Shown in pieces: positions 52,335-55,835 of a stretch of DNA of 64,000 nucleotides. The DNA lies in the NCBI RefSeq assembly GCF_015352955.1, contig NZ_JACYOX010000033.1, forward strand, positions 1 to 64,000. The letters are read 5' to 3'. Position 1 is the first letter of the stretch; the number at the start of each line of letters is the position of its first letter. A program made the position numbers and the translations under genes. This DNA comes from Noviherbaspirillum soli. GTDB lineage: Bacteria > Pseudomonadota > Gammaproteobacteria > Burkholderiales > Burkholderiaceae_D. Under the pieces are notes generated by a model that was given only the letters and a program-made list of their open reading frames with translations, was not told where the DNA came from and made no database searches.

Positions 52335-53141
52335 ATGGGCCAGTACAAGATAGAGGCAGCAACCGGTCAGCACATCGGCGACCGCGACGAGCAACAGGAC
52401 CGGGTGGCGCTGTTTGCCGCGCCGCGCGCGCCGGGCTACATGATGGCGGTGCTGGCCGACGGCCGCGGCGCCGGTTCAGGTGGCGCGATGGCGGCGGAAC
52501 AGGTGATCCGCACCGCGCGCCAGGTCTTCGAGCAGTTTTCGCCGCTGACCGAACAGGTCGATGAGATGCTGTCCTCCATCGCGCTGGAAGCGCACACCGT
52601 GATCAACCTGGCGCGCATTACTTCCGGCGAGCGGCCGCAGAGCACCCTGGTTGCGCTGGTTCTGACGCCCGAGGGCACGGCGCACTGGGCGCATGTCGGT
52701 AATTCACGGCTTTACCGCTTCAGCGGCCCTAACCCGGCGTTTCGTACCGTCGATCATTCCTACCGCGAGAAGCTGATTGCCGAAGGCAAGCTGAAGCCGG
52801 ACGATCCCGGCGGCGCCAAGCTGGCGCGGCTGTTGCTCAACACGCTGGGCGGCGGCAACCAGCACATGAGCGTCACCAGCGGCCGGCACGACGGTCTGCA
52901 GGCGGGCGACAGCTTTCTGCTCTGCTCCGACGGGCTGTCGAACTACTTCGCGGATGCTGAACTGGGCGCCGCCCTGGCCGCACGCTCGCCGCGGGAGGCG
53001 TCCGAAATGATGATCGCCAAGGCGCGTGAACGCGGCGCCGGCAAGCGCGCCGATAACTGCACGCTGGCGCTGGTCAGGCTGGTCACGCCGCCGCCGGAGA
53101 AGAAGACCTATCAGGCGCAGGGCATACGGCGCGCGGTTTGA
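52335..53141 (+). CDS. PP2C-family serine/threonine phosphatase
   Basis: 268 aa. PP2C metal-binding motifs are recognisable: GDRDEQQDRVALF at the N-terminus, VLADGRGAGSGG (for the usual ADGMGGxxxG), HVGNSRLYRF (Asn instead of Asp in GDSRxY), LLCSDGLSNYF and the final RADNCTLALVRL. It probably dephosphorylates Ser/Thr residues in the cytoplasm. No Hanks-type kinase or FHA gene is adjacent, so the partner is unknown. The ATG at 52335 follows a weak ribosome site; the 20-codon upstream extension is not convincing. Confidence 0.85.
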   Translation: MGQYKIEAATGQHIGDRDEQQDRVALFAAPRAPGYMMAVLADGRGAGSGGAMAAEQVIRTARQVFEQFSPLTEQVDEMLSSIALEAHTVINLARITSGERPQSTLVALVLTPEGTAHWAHVGNSRLYRFSGPNPAFRTVDHSYREKLIAEGKLKPDDPGGAKLARLLLNTLGGGNQHMSVTSGRHDGLQAGDSFLLCSDGLSNYFADAELGAALAARSPREASEMMIAKARERGAGKRADNCTLALVRLVTPPPEKKTYQAQGIRRAV

Positions 53142-53156: not shown

Positions 53157-53972
53157 TCATGGCGCCCTGGCGGCGCCCTGTTTTTCCTTGTCCTGTTTTT
53201 CCTTGTCCTGTTTTTCCTTGTCCTGTTTTTCCTTGTCCTGTTTTTCCTTGTCCTGCTTTTCCTTGTCCTGCTGCGCCCGCTTGGCTTTCTTTTCTTCCAC
53301 CTTGCGTTGACGCTCCAGCGCCTCTTCCTGCTTGCGCTGGTAGGCGGCGATGTTCCTTTCCCGTTCCGCCGACTTGGACTCCTCCTCGGCGCGCGCCTTT
53401 GCCATGCGCGCCTCATGCTCGGCGATGCGGTCCCGGCCATCCGTCCGGGGCGCGTCCGGCTCGGGACGCGGCGTAGCCGGCTTCCTGCCTTTCGGCGGAT
53501 TTTCCGGCACTGCCTGCCGCGCTGCCACATCCGCAGCCTTTCTTGCGGCTTTCTCCGTATTGACGCGTTCCCGTTCGGCCCGCTCGGGCGCCTCGCGCGC
53601 CTCTCGCGCGCGCTGCTCTTCGAGCATGCGATCGCGTTTTTCGACGACATCGCGACGCTTGAAGGCATTGGCCTCGACCTCGATCGGCTTGAGCCGTTCC
53701 AGATCCGCCCGGCGCTGTTCCTTGACCTTGCTTACGCAAGGCGAGGAAAAGAACTTGCTGTAGCAGGCATATTCAGTATCCTGGGCACGCGCCTCGACTT
53801 CCTCGCGTTCCCGCTTGACGTCCGCCAGCGCCGCATCGGCCGACTCGACCGAGTCGATCGAACCCTTGGGATAGCGCGCGACGACCTCATCCGTGTCGCT
53901 GGCCGCGGCATGCAGCGCGGCGAGGCCCAGCACCATCGTCAGCGCCAGCCGGCGCACGGCAATCAATCGCAT
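53157..53972 (-). CDS. Exported coiled-coil protein with QDKEK tandem repeats
   Basis: 271 aa from the second Met. Residues 1-~24 are a signal peptide (RLALTMVLGLAALHAAAS). The mature part is almost entirely charged helix (REREEVEARAQD; REREEVEA; AREAREAPERAERER), with two cysteines (EYACYSKF, SSPCVSKV). The C-terminus has six exact QDKEK copies encoded by six 15-bp units. No family is recognised. Its ATG overlaps the zapE stop. The charged coiled coil suggests a structural envelope protein, an inference only. Confidence 0.8.
   Translation of the reverse strand: MRLIAVRRLALTMVLGLAALHAAASDTDEVVARYPKGSIDSVESADAALADVKREREEVEARAQDTEYACYSKFFSSPCVSKVKEQRRADLERLKPIEVEANAFKRRDVVEKRDRMLEEQRAREAREAPERAERERVNTEKAARKAADVAARQAVPENPPKGRKPATPRPEPDAPRTDGRDRIAEHEARMAKARAEEESKSAERERNIAAYQRKQEEALERQRKVEEKKAKRAQQDKEKQDKEKQDKEKQDKEKQDKEKQDKEKQGAARAP
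53178..53267. repeat. 15-bp minisatellite, six copies in frame
   Basis: Six tandem 15-bp units (CTGTTTTTCCTTGTC as seen on the plus strand) fill 90 bp; five are identical and the sixth has one T-to-C change, silent in the minus-strand reading (AAA versus AAG lysine). The unit length is a multiple of three, so copy-number change would lengthen or shorten the protein at 53157-53972 without breaking it. Confidence 0.97.
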
Positions 53973-55072
53973 CATCGGGACAGGGACTCCATCACATTGC
54001 GCCGCTCGGACTGCATGTACTCGCGCGACTGCATTTCGACAATGCGCGACACCGTGCGGTGAAACTCATTGGACAGCACGCCTTCGGTATAGAGTTCCTC
54101 GGCCGGCACTTCGGCCGACATCAGCAGCTTGACCTTGTGGTCGTACAGCACATCGATCAGCCAGGTGAAGCGACGCGCCTCGGACGACATCGCGGCCGAC
54201 ATCTTCGGCACCGAAGACAGGATCACGGTATGGAACTGGCTGGCGATTTCCAGGTAATCGTTCTGCGAGCGCGGGCCGCCGCACAGCGTGGCAAAGTCGA
54301 ACCAGATCACGCCGCCGGCGCGCCGCAGCGCCCGGATTTCGCGGGACTCGATGCGGATCAGCGGATCCTGGTCTTCGCTCTCGGCGATCTTGGCGTAGCC
54401 ATGGCGCAGCTGGCGGTCGGCCTCCTGCCCCAGCGGCGTGTGATAGGCCTCGACCTGCTCCAGCGCCCGCTTGCGGTAGTCGATCCCGGCGTCGACGCAC
54501 ATCACGTCCAGCCGGTCCTTCAGCAGCTCGATCGTGGGCAGCATGCGGTCGCGATGCAGGCCGTTCGGATAGAGCGTGTCCGGCTCGTAGTTGGAAGTCA
54601 TCATGAACGACACGCCATTGTCGAACAGGGCCTTGAGCAGGTTGTAGAGAATCATCGCATCGGCAATGTCCGACACATGGAACTCGTCGAAGCAGATCAG
54701 CCGGTACTTCCTGGCGATGCGCTGGGCCACGGTGTCGAGCGGATTGGCCACGCCTTTCAGGTCGTCGAGCTCGCGGTGCACGCCGCGCATGAATTCATGG
54801 AAGTGCAGCCGGGTCTTGCGCACCACAGGCACCACCAGATAGAAGCTGTCCATCAGGAAGGACTTGCCGCGCCCGACACCGCCCCACATGTAGACGCCGC
54901 GCGGCACCGCGGGGCGACTGATCAGGCGCTTGAACACGCTGGCGCGCTGCGCCTTGTATTCCACCCATTCCTCATAGCAGCGCTGAAGCCGCTCTACCGC
55001 CGCATGCTGGGCCTGGTCTGCCGAAAAGCCCCGCTCGGCCAGCGCATGCTGGTAATACTCGCGCACATCCAT
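53972..55072 (-). CDS. zapE: Cell division protein ZapE (AFG1-like ATPase)
   Basis: 366 aa. The Walker A motif YMWGGVGRGKSFLMDSF, Walker B LICFDEFHVSDIADAM and sensor region TSNYEPDTLYPNGLHR are intact. ZapE binds FtsZ and is needed for division under stress. The start MDVREYYQH at 55072 has GGGAGG 9 bp upstream; an upstream in-frame ATG at 55117 lacks this. The stop overlaps the start of the coiled-coil protein gene, suggesting co-translation. Confidence 0.93.
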   Translation of the reverse strand: MDVREYYQHALAERGFSADQAQHAAVERLQRCYEEWVEYKAQRASVFKRLISRPAVPRGVYMWGGVGRGKSFLMDSFYLVVPVVRKTRLHFHEFMRGVHRELDDLKGVANPLDTVAQRIARKYRLICFDEFHVSDIADAMILYNLLKALFDNGVSFMMTSNYEPDTLYPNGLHRDRMLPTIELLKDRLDVMCVDAGIDYRKRALEQVEAYHTPLGQEADRQLRHGYAKIAESEDQDPLIRIESREIRALRRAGGVIWFDFATLCGGPRSQNDYLEIASQFHTVILSSVPKMSAAMSSEARRFTWLIDVLYDHKVKLLMSAEVPAEELYTEGVLSNEFHRTVSRIVEMQSREYMQSERRNVMESLSR

Positions 55073-55123: not shown

Positions 55124-55280
55124 TCACGGATGAGCGTGACGCCGTAGGGCGCAATACCCAAAGGGCATTGCGCCATCGTCGCCAAACGGCGATGGGCCCC
55201 ATGGGCCGTTTGCCGTGGTCAACCATCGGTGCAATGCCCCTGCGGGGTATTGCACCTTACGGAGTCACGGGCATCCGTGA
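55124..55280. repeat. 157-bp imperfect palindrome (MITE- or REP-doublet-like)
   Basis: The outer arms begin TCACGGATG and continue CGTGAC, CCGTA, GCAATACCC and GGGCATTGC in the same order on both strands, with scattered mismatches. The inner part pairs through AAACGGC and GATGGGCC-like segments around the centre near 55200. Each half also contains its own hairpin (GCAATACCC with GGGCATTGC; GTGCAATGCCCC with GGGGTATTGCAC). It encodes nothing and has the structure of a non-autonomous mobile repeat. Confidence 0.75.
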
Positions 55281-55290
55281 AGAACCTGAA

Positions 55291-55318
55291 AAAATTGGGG
55301 CGAGAACATGCCTCGCCC
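55291..55318 (-). terminator. Intrinsic terminator after the Gly-rich lipoprotein gene
   Basis: GGGCGAG (55298-55304) pairs with CTCGCCC (55312-55318). On the minus strand the stem is followed by AATTTTTTC. It lies ~60 bp after the stop at 55380. Confidence 0.7.
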
Positions 55319-55379: not shown

Positions 55380-55808
55380 TCACAGCGGGTTCATTTCAAC
55401 CAGCACACTGGCCGGCACCGACGATGGGCTGGCGCCTCCGCCTATGGGCACGCCAAGCCCGATGCCGTATCCGACACTGCCGCCCCCGCCGCCCAGGCCG
55501 AAGCCCAGGCTGGTGCGGCCGCCATAGCCGTCGTAACCGGCATAGCCGCCGCGATAGAGCACCTCGGACGTCCGGTAGCCCTGCTTGTTGCATACCACCC
55601 GCAGGTCGCCACGGGTATTGCGTGCCGGCACGACGGCAGGCGTGACGATGTTGAAACTGCCTTCGACCAGCTGCACCGTGCAACTGGCGCCAGCCACCGG
55701 CTGGCCGCGGCTGACGGTCTCGATGCCGAGGTCATTGCTGACCGGCGCCGTGGCGCAGGCCGCCAGGCCCAGCGCCGACAGGGTTGCAAGCAGTGCGCGC
55801 CATCTCAT
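55380..55808 (-). CDS. Glycine-rich putative lipoprotein
   Basis: 142 aa. A signal with lipobox LAAC (ALGLAACAT) is followed by a predicted beta domain (ASCTVQLVEGSFNIVTPA) with two cysteines, a tyrosine-rich stretch (YRGGYAGYDGYGGRTSLG) and a Gly-rich C-terminal half. I recognise no family. It is likely anchored in the outer membrane. The second of two tandem ATGs (55808) is best spaced from GGAGG. It lies 27 bp downstream of lpd on the same strand, but a terminator ends the unit after it. Confidence 0.75.
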   Translation of the reverse strand: MRWRALLATLSALGLAACATAPVSNDLGIETVSRGQPVAGASCTVQLVEGSFNIVTPAVVPARNTRGDLRVVCNKQGYRTSEVLYRGGYAGYDGYGGRTSLGFGLGGGGGSVGYGIGLGVPIGGGASPSSVPASVLVEMNPL

Positions 55809-55835
55809 CATCGCCTCCGTCAAAGGACGTTCGAC

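Follow-up and report, generated by a model that had tools for sequence, protein, structure and literature searches.

An in-frame 15-bp repeat and its probable expansion in the charged tail of a zapE-linked, probably exported protein of Noviherbaspirillum soli

The 64,000-nucleotide stretch of Noviherbaspirillum soli DNA analysed here (contig NZ_JACYOX010000033.1, hereafter the window) carries, close to the 3' end of one gene, a 15-bp unit repeated six times, and this raises the question of whether the encoded protein varies in length and what such variation would mean for the cell. The initial annotation had described an exported, coiled-coil, highly charged protein coupled to zapE, with a (QDKEK)6 minisatellite that was expected to differ in length among strains and that might affect cell division or surface properties. 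The repeat itself is as described: five identical copies and one single-base variant lie directly against one another. On the coding strand, unit 1 reads CAGGACAAGGAAAAG and units 2–6 are mutually identical and read CAGGACAAGGAAAAA; all six encode QDKEK, and the one base that sets unit 1 apart is synonymous (AAG at its end in place of AAA). Seven further residues, QGAARAP, follow the array before the protein ends. The features of the locus are collected in Table 1.

Table 1. Features of the repeat-bearing gene and its neighbours (positions in the window).
Feature	Position	Strand	Evidence or detail
PP2C-type phosphatase gene, convergent	52335..53141	plus	PF13672, E 1.1e-11
Gene of the probably exported protein	53157..53975	minus	272 codons and stop codon; ORF call, profile matches
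Predicted terminal charged helix, residues 180–269, array included	53169..53438	minus	AlphaFold2 model, charge
(QDKEK)6 array	53181..53270	minus	six abutting 15-bp units, residues 236–265
Pro-rich linker, residues 156–179	53439..53510	minus	low pLDDT, 57–58 in mid-linker
Conserved predicted helical hairpin, residues 43–155, with C71 and C80 at the tip	53511..53849	minus	models, cysteines, dN/dS
Export-type N-terminus, about residues 1–25	53901..53975	minus	sequence reading; hydropathy in orthologues
zapE (AFG1-like ATPase)	53972..55072	minus	PF03969, E 1.9e-123; NF040713, E 2.9e-134
Terminator-like hairpin ahead of zapE	55298..55318	minus	pattern scan alone

Tandem Repeats Finder described the array as 6.3 copies of period 15 with 98% matches and a score of 181, the next best of the seven rows returned for the window scoring 68. 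Allowing one mismatch, the unit occurred six times in the window, whereas 100 dinucleotide-preserving shuffles gave 0.00 occurrences on average, and an 18-base pattern taken from the array found, with the same tolerance, six matches in the genome of the organism, all of them inside the array. The count of six rests on a draft assembly of 105 contigs, in which a miscount may occur. The array is an in-frame tandem repeat of near-identical units. Because 15 is divisible by three, a change in copy number would alter the length of the protein and never its frame, and the gene would not be switched off. A phase-variable contingency locus of the on/off type was ruled out for this reason. The open reading frame on the minus strand proved real; two ATG codons stand side by side at its beginning, and the start that had been assigned to it, at position 53972, is the later one, the first lying at 53975.

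To place the array among its relatives, 110 distinct orthologous loci were assembled, 30 of them the best orthologue matches and 80 picked from the best-scoring part of a profile search of 392 genomes; being drawn from best-scoring matches, the set leans towards closer relatives. Of 116 loci scanned, 115 matched (L042, which holds residues 221–270 only, gave no profile match) and five duplicates were dropped; these came from six loci of a scan of named genomes and had gene frames identical to loci already present. Four named-genome loci with such identical frames belong to Herminiimonas, Noviherbaspirillum and Glaciimonas, and the family of the window probably corresponds to Oxalobacteraceae.

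The sister species has exactly one unit at the site of the array (GCGCAG-CAGGACAAGGAAAAG-CAGGGC), with the same sequence on either side of the unit as in the window, while QDKEK is absent from two further congeners, whose tails differ there. Variation in array length is therefore borne out between species, with one unit against six, the comparison being one of species level because each species was represented by one genome. The simplest account is that a pre-existing unit was multiplied in the lineage of the window, a direction that rests on one sister species; the alternative direction is a contraction in the sister species. Dating the array by the identity of its units was not decisive, since at the dS of 0.425 between the two genes we estimate that only about two synonymous changes are expected in six units, and one base distinguishing units was found. 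Across the orthologues, the last conserved block of the protein stops just short of the array, which lies within a variable C-terminal tail. The tail beyond this block ranged from 1 to 89 residues (median 21) in 109 orthologues, L025 being omitted as its tail could not be located, and measured 37 residues in the window. At least three exact copies of any pentapeptide were present in the reading frame of the window only, among the 110; in other tails there were brief runs, for example of Ala-Pro or Ala-Ser-Ser. Tandem Repeats Finder returned rows for 21 of the 110 orthologue genes, the highest score after that of the window being 78 (L023). In one orthologue (L115) a Gln-rich CAG/CAA repeat near the 3' end was observed, an independent low-complexity tail.

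A role for the array at the level of DNA was also considered. The stop codons of the gene and of the convergent PP2C-type gene are 15 bp apart. On the plus strand a terminator-like GC hairpin (53161–53177) is followed by CTGTTTTTCC (site 53161–53187), so that the first T run of the array on that strand closes the hairpin and might terminate transcription of the PP2C-type gene. Terminator-like sites in the region were barely more numerous than in shuffled sequence (5 versus 2.3 ± 1.6), a common hairpin was not found among the seven relatives compared, and the gap between the two genes spans −53 to 340 bp in the 70 of 110 loci at which the PP2C-type gene was found within flanks of limited length. 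Only the first unit lies near the stem, which leaves the six copies unexplained. On the shuffle counts and the lack of hairpin conservation this role was rejected as the main explanation, and we regard it as very improbable.

The protein appears to belong to the cell envelope. Its reading as an exported protein was borne out from sequence alone, by an N-terminus with an Arg-containing start, a hydrophobic stretch and an end of small residues. Hydropathy of the N-terminus exceeded our own cut-off (mean of 1.6 over 14 residues) in 102 of the 110 orthologues, and the other eight scored 1.38–1.53; the protein is probably exported to the periplasm. In a few orthologues a lipobox closes the signal-like sequence, most clearly by eye in L085, L109, L119 and L121; a loose lipobox pattern picked out ten sequences, several of them apparently by accident. 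Judged from these motifs, the protein thus seems to carry a lipid anchor in only some of the species.

Behind the N-terminus, the AlphaFold2 model places two helices (residues 43–71 and 77–155) that meet at a cysteine-flanked tip, then a loose linker and a helix from residue 180 to 269. The two cysteines, C71 and C80, are kept with fixed spacing in all 110 orthologues, and no further cysteine occurs in the mature part, as we delimited it, in 108 of them. This conservation of both cysteines, with almost no others, suggests a disulphide that probably closes the tip of the hairpin. Modelled alone from alignment A2 (109 sequences, L014 being left out for its long insert), the hairpin module gave a pLDDT of 93.9; pTM was moderate, at 0.66 for the module and 0.53 for the whole model. 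Foldseek searches of the PDB found no match at E ≤ 0.001 with either the whole model (best FadA, E 0.34) or the module (best PspA, E 1.1), and a profile search of PDB sequences found none up to E 1. FadA, spectrin-repeat, PspA and CnrX were accordingly rejected as fold relatives and taken as generic helical matches.

The terminal helix is highly charged, as had been proposed, with 60% Asp, Glu, Lys or Arg over residues 180–269. Its predicted pLDDT was 96–97 for residues 231–260 and 83 for residues 261–270, values to be read with the reservation that the model is least secure over the array helix, as a single sequence covers the array and the other rows are gapped. The coiled-coil label did not hold for the array, because QDKEK has no hydrophobic residue and shows no heptad pattern, whereas the predicted hairpin may pack as a coiled coil. 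Lacking such residues, the array would be better named a candidate charged single helix.

Selection differs along the gene. The protein is 88–89% identical to that of the sister species, with a dS of 0.425, a dN of 0.061 and a dN/dS of 0.144 for the whole gene, in comparison to 0.046 for the neighbouring zapE and 0.035 for the PP2C-type gene. Between the same two species dN/dS was lowest over residues 28–155 (0.073) and rose to 0.246 over residues 156–179; the value of 0.118 over residues 180–237 showed that the terminal helix is under purifying selection just before the array. Residues 1–27 gave 1.06, on 27 codons and few changes, indicating an N-terminus without purifying selection.

The protein belongs to a real family that is uncatalogued. 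Of 392 genomes sampled within the family of the window, 380 matched a family profile built from 30 orthologues (alignment A1), as did 343 of the 346 with a completeness of 90% or more and a contamination of 5% or less; across the order the profile matched in 37 of 300 genomes, ten of these 37 being from the window's own family. At E values up to 1 the protein of the window matched nothing in Pfam, and in NCBIfam it matched a single model, at 8.4 bits against a cut-off of 650 bits. When 30 full-length members and 109 N-terminal modules were searched, each Pfam or NCBIfam family that was matched occurred in only one or two members. A collection of plasmids searched with the protein gave no match.

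Coupling to zapE, the second part of the earlier proposal, was confirmed by an ATGATG at the gene start that overlaps the zapE stop codon. In 107 of the 110 loci (exceptions L021, L022 and L110) a zapE gene precedes the orthologue on the same strand, with a median of 68 and a maximum of 552 bases between the end of zapE and the first profile-matched base. As the terminator-like hairpin, one of the 5 sites of the pattern scan (2.3 ± 1.6 in shuffles), precedes zapE, the two genes may share a transcript of their own. The gene linkage and the start–stop overlap favour the idea of a protein that works specifically with ZapE in dividing cells and whose array influences division. ZapE has been described as an ATPase of the inner membrane that is linked to FtsZ-dependent division, with YidC as a suggested bacterial partner (PMC7314023), which makes an exported partner thinkable and no more. 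ZapE works in the cytoplasm and the protein is probably exported, shared function is not shown by gene order alone, and in the flank examined the link to zapE is missing from three of the 110 loci and from each of the four loci checked outside the family (L130, L132, L133 and L134). A division partnership is accordingly unlikely. A bolder version would see an undescribed core envelope factor of this probably Oxalobacteraceae family, co-translated with ZapE and built on a disulphide-closed hairpin, that connects what ZapE does in the cytoplasm on FtsZ or the membrane insertase to the periplasm; its terminal charged helix would serve as a spacer of adjustable length, reset by changes in repeat number. 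This we hold to be quite improbable. ZapE is a direct neighbour with overlapping start and stop codons and itself looks ordinary here, and the protein is unrelated to it. The zapE literature, available mostly as titles and the beginnings of abstracts, yielded nothing on a gene downstream of zapE, which leaves absence from print unproven.

Further upstream, a long palindromic element (55124–55280) was observed between the gene at 55380–55823 and zapE. It belongs to a repeat scattered through the genome: 82 match rows fall into some 40 places when hits separated by more than 500 bp are counted apart, and several of these places cluster. In the sister species this site holds one copy plus a second, partial one. 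As RNA its predicted fold has about −108 kcal/mol. The genome holds a single Y1_Tnp (PF01797) match (L143, contig C21, around 77055), and in its 3.3-kb surroundings the palindromic element was not matched, so that a link to a REP transposase was not found.

The closest parallel to the array is the repeat of tolA. In E. coli, tolA has repeat units of 15 or 18 bp within the part that encodes a long helical domain, their number varying from 8 to 16 among 234 isolates, with a RecA-dependent contraction at 6.9x10^-5 and with stress tolerance that varies with unit number (PMC3477136). Both systems have in-frame 15-bp units (some of 18 bp in tolA) in a long α-helical part of an envelope protein, predicted as such here, and in both a change in unit number alters length with the frame kept (PMC3477136). 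TolA differs in being part of the Tol-Pal system, in its anchor in the cytoplasmic membrane and in its 13 repeats, which are imperfect and rich in Lys and Ala (PMC3477136). In the window the six QDKEK units stand almost at the C-terminus of a zapE-linked protein unrelated to TolA, and variation was seen at the level of species. Descent from TolA was rejected on the empty Pfam result and the absence of any NCBIfam TolA model among the matches of the protein; searched against 30 orthologues, tolA_full matched two (best E 0.0047) and PRK09510 one (E 0.061). Membership of a tol-pal cluster was ruled out, the neighbours being zapE and the PP2C-type gene. As for the TolA-type layout, which combines an uncleaved N-terminal membrane anchor with a C-terminal domain III, a hydrophobic N-terminus that may or may not be cleaved is present and only the seven closing residues follow the array. 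The array resembles the tolA repeat in its mode of action, yet the protein is not TolA. A second parallel is tp0470 of Treponema pallidum, which carries 4 to 37 copies of a 24-bp unit (EAEEARRK) behind a tetratricopeptide domain (PMC9531955). Both repeats are highly charged and C-terminal to a folded domain, and the tp0470 product is predicted to be periplasmic; unit length and the tetratricopeptide domain set tp0470 apart, and its copy number varies among strains (PMC9531955), whereas the window array was compared between species. With these precedents, the type of repeat is already known (PMC3477136, PMC9531955).

The tolA case also suggests a reading in which unit number sets the reach of the charged helix into the periplasm and is itself shifted up or down by selection (PMC3477136). 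The difference between sister species and the perfection of all six units at the protein level would fit such tuning, and by analogy the altered phenotypes of E. coli with different tolA repeat numbers would count against mere tolerance (PMC3477136). So would the purifying selection on the part of the terminal helix that immediately precedes the array. Against tuning, the array is unique among the 110 orthologues, tails vary freely and no binder is known for the C-terminal end, and we consider it rather unlikely.

Our preferred reading, to which we assign a probability of about 0.62, is that the protein is exported and helical and that a recent, probably tolerated repeat expansion made its terminal charged helix longer. 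The gene would be the second member of a zapE-plus-partner pair, with an exported and probably periplasmic product that folds into a long helical hairpin, its tip probably closed by the C71–C80 disulphide, followed by the Pro-rich linker and the long charged helix. The 15-bp unit, single in the sister species, would have been raised to six in the lineage of the window by recombination or slipped replication between units, which would add or remove five residues per unit and leave the frame intact. A helix rises by 1.5 Å per residue, and the 25 residues added by the expansion would thus extend the protein by about 3.7 nm if helical. This lengthening was most likely tolerated; we favour tolerance over tuning because strong conservation of the hairpin goes together with a tail that varies across the family in both length and sequence.

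In summary, the observation of the repeat was correct and its explanation is ordinary. The locus adds a further case of an in-frame, length-changing repeat in what is predicted to be a charged envelope helix, and it offers a clean pair of one and six units with which tolerated and tuned tails may be told apart. More useful still is the protein that came to light with the repeat: near-universal in its family yet uncatalogued, it is linked to zapE, probably exported and marked by two invariant cysteines. Its family merits a name, and it is a concrete candidate for a periplasmic side of ZapE function.
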